64,000 nt of DNA, from assembly GCF_002855515.1 (NCBI RefSeq), contig NZ_PKRP01000001.1, forward strand, positions 186,001 through 250,000, written 5' to 3'. Both the position numbers and the translations under genes were made by a program. The notes beneath the pieces were generated by a model, which saw only the letters and a program-made list of their open reading frames with translations, made no database searches and had not been told where the DNA came from. Positions 14,733 through 21,574 of the stretch are shown one piece after another; positions within the stretch are counted from its first letter, which is position 1; each line of letters begins with the position of its first letter. Source of the stretch: Rhizobium sp. TH135. Its GTDB lineage: Bacteria > Pseudomonadota > Alphaproteobacteria > Rhizobiales > Rhizobiaceae.

Positions 14733-15848
14733 TCAGCGATCCAGGATGGACTGTATCTCCACCATGTTGGAGCGCACCCGCAGGATGTAGAAACCCATGG
14801 TCGCGAGATGCGTCGGCATGATCCAGCCGTCCTCGCTGCCGTTCGAGATGATCGCCGGCTGGATGCGGAGCGCGCCCTGCAGCTGGCGTTCCATCTCGGT
14901 CCAGATGGCAGTCAGGTTACGCTCGCGGATGACGCCGCTGAAGTCGGCGCGCGTTGCCTGCAGCAAGGCATACTGGGCGTAGAGCTGGCCATAGGCGAAC
15001 CAGAAACGGTCGTCGGCACGCGTGTCGAACCAGCCGGCATTGAACTCTTCCGAGCGGCGACGCAGGATATCGGAGGTATTGCCGAGATCGCTCGCCATGC
15101 CGTCCAGGAGCTGCAGCAGGTTGTCGGAGCGGGTGTCGAAGATTGCATCACAGCTGGCAAGCGATGTGTTGAAGCGGTTCCAGCTTTCGACCGCCGCCCG
15201 GTAGTAGCTCGGGGTCGGCGTCTTGAAGCCAAAGGGGTCGGTGCCGAAATACCAGGTGCTTTCGTCGAACTGAATGTTGCCACGCGCATCCTGCAGGTCA
15301 TTGTTGATGCCCGATGTGCCGCGCACGCGACCAAGATTGTCGGCGAGCTGGATGCCGGTACGGCGCACCACCTGGTTCACGCCGCGCTGGAAGGACGCCT
15401 TGTTGTCCATGTAGGGCGTGTTGTCCCAATCGATCCCGAAGAGACCCAGCTTGTAGAGCAGCGTCGAGGAGATCCAGACGTTCTGGTTGACGTTCTGGTC
15501 GGTGAGCGCGGCACTGATCATCACCACCGCCGAATCCTGGCAGCGGTTGGCCTCGCCGGGCAGCGCAGTTCCCGCCGGCACCGTGCGTTCCTCGAACTTG
15601 TAGGCCTGGACGAAGGCCGGATCGAAGGCATACCAGACCTGGGTGCGATAGATGAACTGGCCATAGAAGATCACCAGCAGCACGAGCACGGCGAGGATCG
15701 GCCCCTTGATGATCCAGCTGCGGTCGCGATACCAGCCGTGAGCGGCGAGGAACGGCCAGAGGAACCACGCGACCACCATGCCGATGCCGCGCCCGATGGC
15801 GGCAAAGACGCGCTGGAAGAACGCGATGATCGGGTCAAGCATGGTCAT
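14733..15848 (-). CDS. DUF2333-type membrane-anchored protein, last gene of the unknown operon
   Basis: The protein has 371 residues with a hydrophobic N-terminus (WFLWPFLAAHGW, about 27-38, and a clear membrane span GPILAVLVLLVIFYGQFIY, about 49-67). The remaining 300 residues are soluble and rich in Trp/Tyr, probably periplasmic. It contains TALPGEANRCQDSAVVMISA and ends in SNMVEIQSILDR. I recognise it as the DUF2333 family, which has no known function. Its start overlaps the 3' end of the preceding gene by 14 bp, so the two are translationally coupled. It would be the membrane anchor of the system encoded at 14733-21370. Confidence 0.8.
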   Translation of the reverse strand: MTMLDPIIAFFQRVFAAIGRGIGMVVAWFLWPFLAAHGWYRDRSWIIKGPILAVLVLLVIFYGQFIYRTQVWYAFDPAFVQAYKFEERTVPAGTALPGEANRCQDSAVVMISAALTDQNVNQNVWISSTLLYKLGLFGIDWDNTPYMDNKASFQRGVNQVVRRTGIQLADNLGRVRGTSGINNDLQDARGNIQFDESTWYFGTDPFGFKTPTPSYYRAAVESWNRFNTSLASCDAIFDTRSDNLLQLLDGMASDLGNTSDILRRRSEEFNAGWFDTRADDRFWFAYGQLYAQYALLQATRADFSGVIRERNLTAIWTEMERQLQGALRIQPAIISNGSEDGWIMPTHLATMGFYILRVRSNMVEIQSILDR

Positions 15849-17130
15849 CTCCTAGTCCATAGAGGCGTTTGCGGAAGGCTGCCTTGTCCTTCAGATAAGT
15901 GTCGGACAGGCGGGATACAACATAATCGCGATAGGCTTCCGGATACTGGTCATAGGCCCGGTAGAAGCCCTGCTTGTCGAAGACGAAGCGCGAGACGAAA
16001 TCGTCTGCCGTCAGATGCGCGATCAGCCTGTTGGTCAGCCACTGGTCGGGATGGCCGGGCTCGGCGCGCACGAGCCAGAGCCTGAGCTTCGGATCGATAT
16101 CCGCCATCCGGAGATTACCAGTGCGCGCCAGGGTCCTGAGCGCTTCCTGGAGCAGCGGATAGACCCCGCGCTCGTTGATCGCCTTGGCATTGCGATGCAG
16201 GAAGGTCTGCATCCAGACCGCATCGATGCGGGTGAGGTCCGGCACCGGATCGAGCGTGGCCGCCACCGACAGCAGCGCCATTTCCAACCGATGGGCAAAC
16301 AGACCCGAACTCTCGACCCAGCTCGCCCGCGGCAGCTCGAGCCGGTTCGTGCGCGCCAGGAAGTCGCCGACCTGTGCCCCGTCATGGATCGAGATATAGC
16401 TCACCTGCCAGGGCCGCGACCGGCGAAAACCGGGCGCGCTTGGATCGCAGATGACGGTGGTGATCTTCTCGTCGACAAAGACGAAGACACCGCCGAAATG
16501 ATCGGCCCAGAAAGCGTCGTGGCGGAAGACGAGTTTATCCGGCACCAGCGTATTTTGCCGAATGTCGCCGGTCTCTTTCGCCAGCGACACCATGCGCTCC
16601 AGCATCGCGTCGTCACGCCAGGCATCCGGGCTTGTGACCAGCGCATCGCAAAGCTGCCGGAGCTGCCCCGCCTTGCCGAGCAGGTCTTCCGCCGAGAGGA
16701 CCTTAAACTTCACCTCGTTGATCGACAGCAGATCGTCGAGCGTCTTCACCTCGGAGACGCTATCCTCGATCTCGCCATAGAGCGTGTCCTTGAGCGTGAT
16801 CGCATGGATGGCGCGGGCATTGGCGGCGAAGAACTCGTGCATCAGCCCGGCGGTGTTGGAAAAGCTCGTATGCACCACCGGCAGGCTGTCCTGCTCCGGG
16901 GTCAGGATGATGAAGCGACGGTTGACCTTCAGCGGATCAAGATAGTCGGGATCGCCGAGCTCAGCCGCCACCTGCGGCGAGAAACCGGTGATGTCGATGT
17001 TGAATTCGGTGAGCTTGGTCGCCGGCAGACCAAAGGCGACCAGCGCCTTGTTGTAGCGGGCAATCAGATGCGGCTCGCGAATGGGCAGCAGGCGGCCATA
17101 GATGAGTTCGGCTTCGAGGAGGCGGTTCAT
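15835..17130 (-). CDS. Conserved protein of unknown function (probably DUF6638), operon gene 4
   Basis: This 431-residue protein is soluble, with no signal peptide or membrane segment. It begins MNRLLEAELIYGRLLPI and includes FVFVDEKITTVICDPSAPGF and a helical C-terminal half (QTFLHRNAKAIN, RLIAHLTADDFVSRFVF). I recognise no catalytic motif. From memory it corresponds to a Rhizobiales-wide family labelled DUF6638; that name is not certain. It begins 4 bp after the AAA+ gene and overlaps the DUF2333 gene, so the three are one translational unit. Confidence 0.75.
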   Translation of the reverse strand: MNRLLEAELIYGRLLPIREPHLIARYNKALVAFGLPATKLTEFNIDITGFSPQVAAELGDPDYLDPLKVNRRFIILTPEQDSLPVVHTSFSNTAGLMHEFFAANARAIHAITLKDTLYGEIEDSVSEVKTLDDLLSINEVKFKVLSAEDLLGKAGQLRQLCDALVTSPDAWRDDAMLERMVSLAKETGDIRQNTLVPDKLVFRHDAFWADHFGGVFVFVDEKITTVICDPSAPGFRRSRPWQVSYISIHDGAQVGDFLARTNRLELPRASWVESSGLFAHRLEMALLSVAATLDPVPDLTRIDAVWMQTFLHRNAKAINERGVYPLLQEALRTLARTGNLRMADIDPKLRLWLVRAEPGHPDQWLTNRLIAHLTADDFVSRFVFDKQGFYRAYDQYPEAYRDYVVSRLSDTYLKDKAAFRKRLYGLGDDHA

Positions 17131-17134
17131 GGCT

Positions 17135-19048
17135 TTACCATTTCCCCTCCCCCTTCATCCTCTCGATCTCGCCGATCGCCCGCTCGCGCTGGCGCTCGCG
17201 GCGGATGATCTCCGTTACAGCAGCATCATCCGACTTTTCAGCATAGCGGAATTCGCTGTCAGCGTAGCGGTTGATCTCTTGGCAGATCATCTCCATCGTC
17301 ACCGGGCCGCGAAGCTCCGCAATCATCGCCTTCTTCTCGTCGTAGCTCTTGTGAACGAAAGCGTCAGGCTTTTCGAACCAGGCGTCGGGCAGCTCGACAT
17401 CCATCGCCCGCATCTTGATCGCATCGGTGATGTTCTTGATGGCGCGGCCGGTAAAGCGCGGTTCGGCGAGCTTGATGGCATGCAGATAGGCGCCGACATC
17501 GGCCAGCGTCTCTATTCTGCCCTCTGCCTTCTCGTAGCGTTCCCAAACAGCAACAAGCCCGTCTTCCTTGGGGCGGTCATGCTCTCCATAGGAGCGGCTG
17601 ACGGCCTTCTGGATCTCCTGGCCGGCAAACAGCTGGTGTTCACCAAGCGGGATCTGGTGGTTCTTGCCGACCAGCAGCGAGAAGATATCGATATAGTCCT
17701 CGCGGGTCTGCGGCCCGTCGACGAGCCAGCGGGCGCCGGCGCGCTGGCGCAGGGCATCGTCGACATTCTCAGGGTAGTTGGAGAACATGCCGAAGGTGGC
17801 GTTGCCCCGCACGACGGTCGAGGCGCCGGCGAAACTCTCCATCAGCACAGCCGTCACCTCGTGCTGGCCGGCCGAGGCCCGGTCGTCGGAGCGCTTGGCC
17901 GTAACCTGGTCGACATCGTCGATCGTGCCAAAGCCAATGACGCGCGGGTTGAGCACGTTGTTGACGAAGCTTTTGCAATTCTGGCCGGACTTGCCCTGAT
18001 AGGACGAGATCTGGTCGACGCCGAAATTCTCGTAATGGAAGGCATAACCCGCCATCTTGCAGTAGTCGTTGAGCAGCCCCGCCAGCATCTGGATCAGGAT
18101 CGTCTTGCCCGTCCCCGGCATGCCATCACCGATGAAGGTGAAAAGGAAGCCGCCGAGATCGACGAAGGGGTTCATCTGCCGGTCGAAATCATAGGCCATC
18201 AGCATCTTGGCGAGCTTCAGCGCTTGATACTTGGCGATGTGGTTGCCGATGATCTCTTCGGGCTTCTTGAAACTCATCGAAAGCGGCTTCGATTTGACGC
18301 CCGGTACGCCATCGAAACCGTCGAGGGTGAAATCATCCTGATCGACGCGGATATGGGCGTTTTCGAAGACGCCAAGATGCTCGAAGCGGGCCTTGCGAGT
18401 GAGCAGCCCGTCGAGCGCGAGATCGGCAAGGCCGCGGACCCGGCCGATCAGGGTCGCATCGTCACCCGCCCCCTTCACTGCCGTATCGATGCCGGCGACC
18501 ATGCTCTTGAGCGCGTCCTGCGCGGTGTCGAACAGGAAGTCCGGCTCGCGGATGCCGTCGAGTTGCTCGCCCTCGCCTGCGACGGTGGACTTCAGATAAG
18601 CGGCAAAGGCAAAGGCCGCGAGATAGGCCTGCGAGGCGAGAAGCGCCTTAAAACGGGCGGCCTCCTCGCCTTGCAGCGGCGCGCTGATGTTACGCGCCTG
18701 CAAGGGCTCAAGCTCGCTCTGCCGGGCAAAGACATCCGATATCGCAAGCGCCACCTGCGCACCGCGCCGCACGCGGTAGAGCACGGTATGCTGAGCAGGC
18801 GTCAACAGCGGATCGGCAGTCCCGGTCGCCTGGATGGTCTTGGAAAGCTCGATCTCGCGGGTGCGCCGCACCGATCCGGTCGAGACCGTCGAGACGAACC
18901 GGCGTCCCGTGCCGGCGATCGGAGCACCGGATGCGCCCTCGCCCTGGTCGAGAACCACGACGCGCGTCACCAGTCCCTGGGCGACAGCCATATGCTTCGC
19001 AATGTCTTCTTCACGCAGCGTCGTCAGCCCTGCCGTCAATTCACTCAT
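17135..19048 (-). CDS. AAA+ ATPase of the unknown operon
   Basis: A 637-residue protein. The N-terminal 290 residues are an uncharacterised domain beginning MSELTAGLTTLREEDIAKHM. An AAA+ module follows: Walker A GDGMPGTGKT (near residue 305), Walker B VIGFGTIDDVD (near 370), a sensor-1-like Asn in FGMFSNYPENVDD and paired arginines in DALRQRAGAR, the pattern of classic AAA proteins such as FtsH or proteasomal ATPases. No protease motif (HExxH) or helicase motif is visible, so it is likely a remodelling ATPase acting on its operon partners. A charged C-terminal tail ends in RERQRERAIGEIERMKGEGKW. Confidence 0.85.
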   Translation of the reverse strand: MSELTAGLTTLREEDIAKHMAVAQGLVTRVVVLDQGEGASGAPIAGTGRRFVSTVSTGSVRRTREIELSKTIQATGTADPLLTPAQHTVLYRVRRGAQVALAISDVFARQSELEPLQARNISAPLQGEEAARFKALLASQAYLAAFAFAAYLKSTVAGEGEQLDGIREPDFLFDTAQDALKSMVAGIDTAVKGAGDDATLIGRVRGLADLALDGLLTRKARFEHLGVFENAHIRVDQDDFTLDGFDGVPGVKSKPLSMSFKKPEEIIGNHIAKYQALKLAKMLMAYDFDRQMNPFVDLGGFLFTFIGDGMPGTGKTILIQMLAGLLNDYCKMAGYAFHYENFGVDQISSYQGKSGQNCKSFVNNVLNPRVIGFGTIDDVDQVTAKRSDDRASAGQHEVTAVLMESFAGASTVVRGNATFGMFSNYPENVDDALRQRAGARWLVDGPQTREDYIDIFSLLVGKNHQIPLGEHQLFAGQEIQKAVSRSYGEHDRPKEDGLVAVWERYEKAEGRIETLADVGAYLHAIKLAEPRFTGRAIKNITDAIKMRAMDVELPDAWFEKPDAFVHKSYDEKKAMIAELRGPVTMEMICQEINRYADSEFRYAEKSDDAAVTEIIRRERQRERAIGEIERMKGEGKW

Positions 19049-19050
19049 GC

Positions 19051-20202
19051 TCAGACCTCACTCACGACCTGGTTGCCCGAAATCACATGCACCTTGAAAT
19101 TGCCGAAGATCGGCTTGATCTCGCCGGCAGCATAGAGCGCCTGATAGGCGTCATGCGGCACCAGCGCGTGCTTCTCGTAGGTCGACACACCCATGCGCGC
19201 GGCCTCAAGATCATGCGTCTCGATGTGGAACTCCTGGGTGGCCGGCGTGGACGAAAAGAAGCCCTTCACCGCCGGCTGCTCGCGCTTGGAAAACACCTCC
19301 TGCACCGTCCAGGTCATCACCCAGGCGTTCTCAGGCTTGCGCACCCGGTCGAGGATCTCGGTCACCCGGCCGGAATTCTGGGTAAGCCCCGTCGAATAGA
19401 GCGGCCCGAGCACCACGCGCCGGATCGACTTCGGATGCAGGGTCGGGAAATCGCGGTCCATATTGGTCGCGATGGTGGCCGGCGTCAGTGAGTAAGCCGA
19501 GTTCTTGGCGCAGAAATCGTCGAATGTGCGGGCAAGCTCCGGATTGAGCAGACCGCCGACCGGCAACGGGATCTCGACCTCCTCGTTGAGCTTGCCGTCC
19601 TCGGTCACCAGGATCTTCGTGACGTTTTCGGCGGAATCCTCGATCGTCGCCAGATAGATCATCGGCAGCGTGCTCACGCCATCGAAGGCAGCCCAGCTGA
19701 CGAGATAGGACGGTCGGCGTGACTGCGGATTGACGCTGACGGCAACTGTGGTCGGCAGCACGAAGGGCGAGAAGATCTCCCCGGCCTGAACCTGCTCCAG
19801 ATAAAGCCGCTCGGCAATCTGCTGCTGCAGCGCCGCCGGAAACTCCTTCTGCCGCAGGATGAAATCGACCATCTCGGCGCGCAGCTTGCCGACATCAGGG
19901 ATGGTGGAAAGTCTGGAGGCGGCTCCCGCGCGATCGTTTTCCAGCTCCAGCACGTTCTGGAAGATCGGAAAGCCGCTCTCCGCCTGGGCGATCTTGAACT
20001 GACCAGTAAAGCCGATGCGGTTCTGCCAGGAGTTGAAGGAGTTCCGCAGGCGATCGAGATAAGGCAGCAGATGCAGTGTCGGCGGCCCCTTCTCGCCGAA
20101 GCGGCGATCGGACTGGCCGAAGAACTGCTCGAGGCCCGCGAGCGCCGAGGCCATGGTGCTGAAATAGTGCGTCACGGCACTGTTGCGATCGACGACGTTC
20201 AT
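19051..20202 (-). CDS. Conserved protein of unknown function, operon gene 2
   Basis: The protein has 383 residues when begun at the ATG at 20202 (MNVVDRNSAVTHYFSTMASAL); an upstream in-frame start at 20268 would add 22 low-quality residues. It is soluble, with no signal peptide, no recognised domain and no obvious catalytic cluster. Features include a helical N-terminal half and a beta-rich middle (FVLPTTVAVSVNPQSRRPSYLVSWAAF). It ends 2 bp before the AAA+ gene, a sign of obligate co-expression, and could be an adaptor or substrate of that ATPase. Confidence 0.7.
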   Translation of the reverse strand: MNVVDRNSAVTHYFSTMASALAGLEQFFGQSDRRFGEKGPPTLHLLPYLDRLRNSFNSWQNRIGFTGQFKIAQAESGFPIFQNVLELENDRAGAASRLSTIPDVGKLRAEMVDFILRQKEFPAALQQQIAERLYLEQVQAGEIFSPFVLPTTVAVSVNPQSRRPSYLVSWAAFDGVSTLPMIYLATIEDSAENVTKILVTEDGKLNEEVEIPLPVGGLLNPELARTFDDFCAKNSAYSLTPATIATNMDRDFPTLHPKSIRRVVLGPLYSTGLTQNSGRVTEILDRVRKPENAWVMTWTVQEVFSKREQPAVKGFFSSTPATQEFHIETHDLEAARMGVSTYEKHALVPHDAYQALYAAGEIKPIFGNFKVHVISGNQVVSEV

Positions 20203-20281
20203 GCCCCTCCCCCCATCGACAGGACCGCGCACCGCAAGAGCGGCACGCGGCCTGATGGCCGCGTCCACGTCATGGGCACGA

Positions 20282-21370
20282 TCAAGGCTTCACGTAGTTG
20301 GCCGCATTGTGCTTGTCGAGAACCGACTGGAAGCGACGCGCAAAAGCGTCGTCGGCAAGCTTCTTGCGGCGCTGGATGTCCTGCGTCGAGAGCATGTTCT
20401 TCTCGTGCAGTTCCAAGAGATCGCCGATATGCCGCTGGGCGGCGGCACCAATGCCGGCCATCGTTTCTTCGGCCGCCGTATCGACCTGCGAACCCAGCGT
20501 GTTGATCCGGTGGGCGACTTCCTGCTGGGCAGCGGTCTTCAACGAATCTTCCAGCGCCTTGTAGAGCACGATGCGCTGCTCAGTATCGATCGTCAGCTTG
20601 TTGATCAGCGTGTTCTGGGCAGCGATCTGGTTGTTCAAGCTGTCGACGAAGGTCTGGAACATCGAGGTGTAGCGTTCCAGCGTCTGGCTCTCGGCAAGAA
20701 GCTCCTGCTCGCGGGCCTGCGCCTGATTGTAATCGGTCGCAAGCTTCGAGCGTTCGGCTTCCAGATCCGTGCGTTCCGAGGTGTCTGTCGAAGCGGCGAT
20801 CTTGTTTTCGATATCGAGCAGCGCCGGATTGAGCGTTTCAATGCGCTTCTGGGTCTCTTCCAGATTGGCGATCGTTTGCTTGCGCCGCTCGATCACCTGC
20901 ACGAGGCTGGCCTCGGAGGTCTTGTAGCGCTCTTCGAGAACCGTCTTCTGTTCCTTGAGAATGCCGACAATGCTGTCGGACTTGGCGAGCAGTTCCTGCA
21001 GATTGCCGGCAAGCGACATGTTGCGGACGCGCTCGGTGCGCATGCTCTGCGCCTTCTGCTTGGAAAAGATCCCGATGAATTTTTCCATGCCGGTCAGGCT
21101 CTTCATGCTTTCGAACTCGGCACCGAAGACATTGGTCGCGTCTTCCAGCCCGATGATCAGGTCAGCGATGTTCGCCTCCATCACCTTCTGCTGGTTGAGC
21201 ACATCCGAGATCCGGGCATTCTCGATATCGAAGTCCTGGCCGACGAGCTTGGAATCGCTCTTGGCGAGCGTATCCAGCACCACACCGGACTGTTCGATCT
21301 TGCCGCGCATCTCCGACACGATCTTGCGCGTCTTCTCGATCTCGCTGTCGAAGGATTGCAAAGTCGCCAT
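20282..21370 (-). CDS. Long coiled-coil protein, first gene of the unknown operon
   Basis: The protein has 362 residues and is almost wholly helical, with heptad-like spacing and long runs rich in Glu, Gln, Lys and Leu (for example VLEERYKTSEASLVQVIERR and RTDLEAERSKLATDYNQAQ). It has no membrane span or signal peptide. It contains one short non-coiled, Gly/Met-containing segment (SLTGMEKFIGIFSKQKAQSM). It resembles structural or scaffold coiled coils (the TelA-like and phage-shock-type helical proteins come to mind) without a definite match. The operon starts here; 79 bp separate it from the next gene, the largest gap in the cluster. Confidence 0.75.
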   Translation of the reverse strand: MATLQSFDSEIEKTRKIVSEMRGKIEQSGVVLDTLAKSDSKLVGQDFDIENARISDVLNQQKVMEANIADLIIGLEDATNVFGAEFESMKSLTGMEKFIGIFSKQKAQSMRTERVRNMSLAGNLQELLAKSDSIVGILKEQKTVLEERYKTSEASLVQVIERRKQTIANLEETQKRIETLNPALLDIENKIAASTDTSERTDLEAERSKLATDYNQAQAREQELLAESQTLERYTSMFQTFVDSLNNQIAAQNTLINKLTIDTEQRIVLYKALEDSLKTAAQQEVAHRINTLGSQVDTAAEETMAGIGAAAQRHIGDLLELHEKNMLSTQDIQRRKKLADDAFARRFQSVLDKHNAANYVKP

Positions 21371-21574
21371 GTTGTCTCCCTGTCCCTCATGCCGGCGGCG
21401 CGCCGGACTCGTTGCCTACCACCATAGCGCGTTTCCCGTTGCGGGAAAGTATCGCAGCGCACAGGAGCAATCGCCTTCATCCGATATGGATGGTCGCAGC
21501 CCCCACACAAGAGGCGCTATCAGAGAAATGCGACAGCCGCGAAACGGCTGCCGCATCGGGGAGTTGTGTCGAGA

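Follow-up and report, generated by a model that had tools for sequence, protein, structure and literature searches.

A conserved AAA+ ATPase operon with an insertion slot of exchangeable cargo in Rhizobium and its relatives

Results

A five-gene AAA+ operon in Rhizobium sp. TH135

The window analysed here, a stretch of 64,000 nucleotides from Rhizobium sp. TH135 (Rhizobiaceae; host genome of 4.8 Mb; closest relatives by name Rhizobium sp., Rhizobium rosettiformans, Allorhizobium and similar), carries at positions 14733-21370 of its minus strand an operon of five co-directional open reading frames (ORFs) that includes an AAA+ ATPase gene. This unit is real, it is conserved and, as far as literature and database searches reach, it is undescribed. 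A preliminary description of the window had listed five genes read in one direction, three of the junctions being 79, 2 and 4 bp long and the other a 14-bp overlap, and every ORF and spacing was confirmed exactly, with the ATG at 20202 taken as the start of the second gene. As gene order is kept across the 100 loci described below, the arrangement is not a chance one; co-transcription was judged solely by spacing.

In the direction of transcription, the operon consists of g1 (20282..21370), encoding a coiled-coil protein of 362 residues; g2 (19051..20202), encoding a soluble protein of 383 residues with a helical N-terminal half and a mixed beta C-terminal half; g3 (17135..19048), encoding the AAA+ ATPase of 637 residues; g4 (15835..17130), encoding a DUF6638 protein of 431 residues; and g5 (14733..15848), a lineage-specific fifth gene encoding a DUF2333 protein with an N-terminal hydrophobic (transmembrane) segment. 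Between g3 and g4 lies a junction of 4 bp (17131..17134), the position of the insertion slot considered below, which is empty in the window.

The g3 product exceeds the cut-off of the Pfam AAA family (PF00004; 38.7 bits against 21.2), and by the same criterion g4 belongs clearly to DUF6638 (PF20343; 240.9 bits against 27) and g5 to DUF2333 (PF10095; 72.4 bits against 22), which bears out the earlier suggestions that the fourth gene is probably DUF6638 and the fifth a membrane-anchored protein of DUF2333 type. Indeed, g5 alone among the five proteins has a strongly hydrophobic segment, with a 19-residue mean of 2.21 at residue 45 compared to peaks of at most 1.28 in g1-g4. DUF6638 is not mentioned in the literature searched, and the one publication found on DUF2333 describes the gene as uncharacterised, in a type VI secretion locus that also contains an amidase gene and a NUDIX gene. 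For g1 and g2 the Pfam scan returned no family above cut-off, and only scattered weak matches were obtained with 30 g1 relatives (best E 0.0012) and 34 g2 relatives (best E 0.02). The predicted structure of g2 weakly resembles a T-fold, the proteins compared being urate oxidase, DHNA and PTPS, and the predicted model of g4 (predicted local distance difference test score, pLDDT, of 87.6) gave no clear match in fold comparison.

The C-terminal region of g1 resembles, by eye, the tail motif of TelA (PF05816), and both are long helical soluble proteins of similar length, raising the idea that g1 is distantly related to the TelA-type coiled-coil proteins of tellurite and stress response and that the unit belongs to a Ter/TelA stress network. 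In a profile comparison with nine TelA proteins, however, g1 together with its Vibrio relatives scored worse (P 0.091) than a reversed g1 decoy (P 0.043), and TelA does not appear among the matches listed for the 30 g1 members. A TelA origin of g1 was therefore dropped and is, in our estimate, highly improbable.

The AAA+ protein had been credited with complete Walker A and Walker B motifs, of which the first stands and the second does not. In an alignment of 32 rows (A7), Walker A reads GMPGTGKT (residues 309-316) with G309 and PGTGKT (311-316) invariant, whereas the Walker B position holds D377-D378, both invariant, instead of the canonical Asp-Glu. Tyr350, also invariant in the 32 rows, is a candidate pore-loop residue, and a sensor-1 Asn424 and a GRAIKN motif (534-539) were read from the alignment; motif names beyond Pfam are our own reading. 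The nearest solved sequences are the i-AAA protease ATPase domain and 26S proteasome subunit 4 homologues when the g3 profile is used, and AFG2 and Fidgetin-like proteins when the single sequence is used, all of these matches being weak (best E 1.2e-4 and 8.5e-4). Like the classical AAA proteins (i-AAA/FtsH-type, proteasomal ATPases, AFG2, Fidgetin-like), g3 has a Walker A motif, a sensor-1 Asn and a tyrosine at the pore-loop position, but it differs from them in its Asp-Asp Walker B, in an N-terminal region of its own of 250 residues and in having the fixed partners g1, g2 and g4, and a protease domain was not found.

Four genes form a conserved core

Conservation was assessed over 100 loci, made up of the best 80 of 570 confirmed in a scan of named genomes, which are rather near relatives, and 20 further loci chosen to include distant ones; 96 were picked by AAA+ and four by DUF6638 (G249, G295, G304, G353). 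AAA+ and DUF6638 are present in 100/100 loci, and g1 and g2 in 99/100 each (g1 of L171 is a fragment at a contig end, and L109 begins at one). In genome samples spread evenly over the class, DUF6638 occurs in 4/240 genomes and AAA+ in 4/230, and these are the identical four, that of the window included. The preliminary description had named genes that are rarely together as the outcome that would speak against a joint unit; the neighbourhood count came out opposite, with the genes kept together nearly always.

The first four genes also occur together in Gammaproteobacteria. Two Vibrio records contain g1-g2-AAA+-DUF6638 in this order, adjoining mfd, and the V. vulnificus copy is 38.6% (g1), 27% (g2), 40% (AAA+) and 34% (g4) identical to that of the window, so that the core spans Alpha- and Gammaproteobacteria. 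In addition, the Rhizobium leguminosarum plasmid pRlX5 (L187) carries a second, diverged copy of the four genes, for which no match to DUF2333 was obtained. Since g1-g4 stand together in Vibrio, where the fifth gene was not found beside them, the core is these four genes: g1, g2, AAA+ and DUF6638.

The fifth gene encodes DUF2333 in 84/100 loci and DUF1523 (PF07509) in the other 16 (L153 and its kind), 14 of which have a small transmembrane gene before DUF1523. Thirteen of the DUF1523-type loci come from one family, f24, and three from elsewhere; we refer to f24 as Rhodobacteraceae on the grounds that its AAA+ proteins are closest to those of Shimia, Phaeobacter, Leisingera, Roseovarius and similar genera. 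Next to the core genes of Vibrio (L184) and of the R. leguminosarum plasmid copy, neither DUF2333 nor DUF1523 was found. Given this exchange and these absences, the envelope anchor that the preliminary description had included in the proposed complex does not hold up as a part of the core.

Starting from DUF6638 instead, the AAA+ end lies within about 1.5 kb in 50 of 59 loci. Among the remainder, three have AAA+ behind a slot of 1.5-3.1 kb (L220, L221, L224) and four stop at contig ends (L037, L204, L210, L216). In L222, g1-g2-AAA+ and g4-g5 are on opposite strands with choline-transporter genes between them, and in L223 DUF6638 occurs with no AAA+ on 12 kb around it.

Across 70 loci, g1 is the most conserved gene of the operon (median identity 83.7%, minimum 78.7%), followed by AAA+ (median 75.7%, minimum 68.8%), g4 (median 67.4%), g2 (65.5%) and g5 (61.0%). 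The adjoining transporter genes, annotated in S. meliloti as those of a choline transporter (choV and choW), have medians of 77.2, 72.0 and 78.9% and minima of 50-64%. In 76 of the 80 near-relative loci the operon is accompanied on its stretch by the gene for the transporter binding protein, and of the four that lack this gene, two (L048, L109) have the operon near an end of the stretch; within this set, the operon therefore looks to have been inherited in place.

The AAA+/DUF6638 junction is a slot for exchangeable cargo

Inserts of at least 250 bp are found at the AAA+/DUF6638 junction in 62/99 loci (L160 was left out of the slot counts), compared to 13/98 between g1 and g2, 3/98 between g2 and g3 and 0/84 between g4 and g5, and inserts of at least 300 bp are found at none of the adjoining transporter junctions (0/76 and 0/73). 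Because the slot is empty in the window, it had gone unseen in the preliminary description. The annotation of S. meliloti Ak57 agrees, with an endonuclease-domain gene and an insertion sequence (IS) element between the AAA+ gene and g4. No description of a slot of this kind was found in the titles and opening lines of abstracts of the literature searched.

To these loci were added those of the DUF6638-first sample, giving 149, from which 11 that were at least 99% identical in g4 were removed, leaving 138 non-redundant loci; the nine DUF6638-first loci without an AAA+ end within about 1.5 kb were unscored and lie outside the 138. The slot is shorter than 180 bp in 47 of these and at least 180 bp in 91, of which 77 hold recognisable cargo and 14 are unlabelled. 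Nuclease genes account for 29 of the 77 (DUF559 27, Mrr 1, HNH 1) and toxin-antitoxin systems for 26, namely 24 of ParE/RelE type with a helix-turn-helix or ribbon-helix-helix antitoxin, one PIN with a Phd antitoxin and one MqsR-like pair that is our own reading without a Pfam match. Membrane proteins, labelled by eye from hydrophobic stretches, make up 12, and HEPN/AbiJ/DUF3825 proteins six (HEPN/DUF4145-like 3, AbiJ_NTD4 2, DUF3825 1). The other four are a HATPase-like protein and three members of a family of about 254 residues, which fills the slot in three f24 loci (L193, L202, L209) and for which the two members scanned (L193, L202) gave no Pfam match. The HEPN, HNH and HATPase labels are matches below Pfam cut-off, and because BLAST was used to extend labels from representatives to the other loci, individual assignments may be wrong. 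The Mrr cargo (L192) is split into two ORFs, Mrr_N and Mrr_cat, and may be broken or misassembled.

Slot cargo turns over fast. On a quick tree of the 100 AAA+ proteins the slot changes state at least 42 times, a rough count given that 30/97 inner branches are weak and the cargo classes coarse. Indeed, the window, with its empty slot, groups with loci carrying toxin-antitoxin cargo (L047, L048, L052) and DUF559 (L091), the AAA+ proteins being 95-97% identical.

Two styles of insertion can be told apart. In Rhizobiales-type loci 62/101 slots are filled, with toxin-antitoxin pairs and DUF559 genes, some of them with palindromes at their edges. In DUF1523-type loci 29/37 are filled, mostly by single genes, and 19 of the 24 labelled cargo ORFs begin -8 to +6 nt from the AAA+ stop codon, although 4-bp start/stop overlaps are weak evidence, as a start codon overlapping TGA often arises by chance. 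The cargo starts were searched on the operon strand and the junction clusters of the 100 loci on both strands; the clusters of RelE, DUF559 and antitoxin ORFs share, without exception, the direction of the operon, and a minus-strand cluster over the DUF559 loci is taken as antisense frames.

These patterns bear on whether the slot is simply a tolerant landing site, into which selfish toxin-antitoxin and DUF559 cassettes unrelated to the core insert because expression of g4 survives the insertion, an explanation to which we give a considerable chance, somewhat short of even. In Mesorhizobium, the DUF559 inserts of L100 and L105 are flanked by palindromic repeats and the "empty" slot of L118 retains one such repeat as a scar, and the toxin-antitoxin inserts of L047, L049 and L052 start with an operator-like palindrome. 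The IS element in the S. meliloti Ak57 slot, the rearrangement in L222, which parts g4-g5 from g1-g3 at the slot junction, and the long spacing that also occurs outside the operon (at least 300 bp between a cytochrome c gene and g1 in 15/56 loci) fit the same explanation. It accounts less well for the rarity of such inserts at the other junctions of the same operon, and for the scored cargo of the DUF1523-type loci, which mostly lies tight against AAA+ and has neither DUF559 nor toxin-antitoxin pairs among its labels (the unscored DUF1523-type locus L215 has, by eye, a DUF559-like ORF). The shared orientation of the cargo clusters also speaks against it, but selection against opposed inserts could equally explain this.

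Occasional genes were also seen at other junctions. A gene for an SPFH/prohibitin-like membrane protein, read from sequence without a Pfam call, lies between g1 and g2 in L051 and L115, and an ORF of 259 residues, Fic-type by eye, lies between g2 and AAA+ in L122.

The core has only weak matches to known defence systems

BREX, restriction-modification and similar loci have conserved genes around an internal position with varying nuclease, toxin and abortive-infection genes. The operon likewise has conserved genes around a variable internal position, but in Pfam and PADLOC its core genes give no more than weak hits to systems of that sort, and no phage-borne relatives were found. The core could nevertheless belong to an anti-phage or stress-death system in which it detects or deals with an attack while a swappable effector, released or activated through AAA+, comes from the slot, a proposal that we consider unlikely. 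Many of the cargo types are typical of defence loci (the 26 toxin-antitoxin, 29 nuclease and six HEPN/AbiJ/DUF3825 cases among the 77), the distribution of the operon is patchy, and DUF1523-type cargo mostly starts close to the AAA+ stop codon. Moreover, when ten cargo proteins were compared with PADLOC, four gave hits at E <=0.001, namely the Mrr piece (PDC-S02, 1.4e-31; a model for type IV restriction, 5.7e-23), the HATPase-like protein (DrmA, 7.6e-9), HNH (2.5e-5) and DUF559 (9.2e-4).

The remaining six cargo proteins, including the HEPN-like, AbiJ and DUF3825 proteins, match nothing in PADLOC. Against PADLOC-DB 2.0.0, the best matches of the operon proteins are to TRIP13 (AAA+, E 9e-4) and LmuB (coiled coil, E 2.1e-3), and g2, g4 and g5 return nothing at E 1 or better. 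The earlier statement that no known secretion, defence or division system is recognisable in the gene set thus holds: no secretion or division system scores above the Pfam or NCBIfam curated cut-offs, and PADLOC adds only these weak hits, of coiled-coil and generic AAA kind. A search of 50,697 phage records found no homologue of the AAA+ protein, none was confirmed in viral contigs, and the chromosomal place of the operon is fixed in most Rhizobiales loci of the 80-locus set. Defence genes tend to diverge fast, and g1 does not. Finally, the slot is empty in 47/138 loci, the window and Vibrio, which indicates that cargo is dispensable for keeping the core.

A protein-remodelling complex as the favoured interpretation

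In the interpretation that we favour, with a probability of roughly 55%, the products of the operon form a cytosolic complex in which the AAA+ protein drives protein remodelling. In such a complex, the g3 ring would pull on a protein substrate through its pore-loop tyrosine; g1, the most conserved partner, would be either a scaffold or itself the assembly undergoing remodelling; g2 and g4 may act as adaptors; and g5, whether DUF2333 or DUF1523, would tether the machine to the inner membrane where it is present. Genes of toxin-antitoxin, nuclease, abortive-infection-like or membrane type, reading in the same direction, join this core through the slot. In our reading, the core is a cellular machine for protein quality or stress and not a dedicated phage-defence system. 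In favour of the interpretation are the synteny and co-occurrence of the core genes, their shared order in Vibrio, the AAA match of g3 with its invariant Tyr350, the high minimum identities of g1 and AAA+ relative to the transporter genes, the apparent inheritance in place and the concentration of inserts at one junction.

Several observations weigh against this interpretation. We infer both the roles of g1-g4 and the complex itself, and the Asp-Asp Walker B implies that ATP turnover by g3 may be slow or absent. The link between DUF6638 and AAA+ in the 59 DUF6638-first loci is strong, not absolute. Conservation is also not exceptional throughout, as the median identities of g4, g2 and g5 fall below those of all three transporter genes and that of AAA+ falls among them, with only g1 exceeding them. 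Furthermore, a housekeeping role would predict a wider presence than the patchy pattern seen: the operon is present in 71/121 genomes of the family of the window (where the only other genome of the same genus lacks it), 67/149 of family f24, 26/398 of the phylum and 1/229 of the class of G400, all genome counts including the own or centre genome. The operon has also moved between lineages, as seen in the R. leguminosarum plasmid copy and in the DUF1523-type operons of G400 and G601, and all three transporter genes lie alongside it in 0/20 of the further loci.

A bolder version would make the AAA+/DUF6638 pair a docking site, where the ring holds, folds or unleashes whichever toxin, nuclease or membrane protein the slot encodes as effector. 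We regard docking in this sense as doubtful, and consider it unlikely that the cargo is a functioning payload of any sort. If docking were true, one conserved ATP-driven controller would serve many unrelated payloads, swapped among close relatives, and any dependence of cargo on the core would mean that common bacteria of soil, symbioses and the sea have a modular, ATP-driven control unit for toxic payloads. If the cargo is independent, what remains is a conserved AAA+ remodelling unit, so far undescribed, whose partners belong to families of unassigned role, and a fast insertion hot spot within an otherwise tight operon. The payload swaps between near-identical relatives provide a natural experiment for the dependence of cargo on the core.

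Upstream elements and further observations

A promoter-like element, CTTG-N18-CC-N2-AT (CTTG-N18-CCATAT in the window; 21484..21511, minus strand), lies upstream of g1. The pattern occurs upstream of g1 in 54/80 Rhizobiales-type loci compared to a mean of 1.2 and a maximum of 4 in shuffles, a count that is not independent because the pattern was composed after viewing 28 of these upstream regions; five of the 54 sites are from Mesorhizobium and differ in the second half. It is found upstream of none of the other core genes (g2 0/82, g3 0/82, g4 0/83) and in 1/16 DUF1523-type loci, and it is absent in Vibrio even by a looser pattern. The spacing CTTG-N17/18-CC fits the RpoH1/RpoH2 consensus as quoted in the accessible part of PMC4843759. 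The rhizobial housekeeping promoter, as given in the corresponding part of PMC4167512, is also close to the element, and PMC6180224 lists one "RpoD" promoter with CTTG and CCATAT, while the accessible parts of PMC3616915 and PMC3441632 give no consensus letters. Because RpoH and RpoD both fit, we make no claim of a heat-shock promoter before g1.

General scans gave one promoter-like site, compared to 1.5 in shuffles, and seven terminator-like sites, compared to 4.7, and Rfam returned no match. The S. meliloti gene SMc02733, on a ChvI-bound fragment according to the accessible part of PMC3687685, could not be tied to the operon and was not used. Lastly, a contig titled Arenimonas, a gammaproteobacterium, contains a Rhizobiaceae-type operon (L072) with an AAA+ protein 79% identical; the bin is probably mislabelled.

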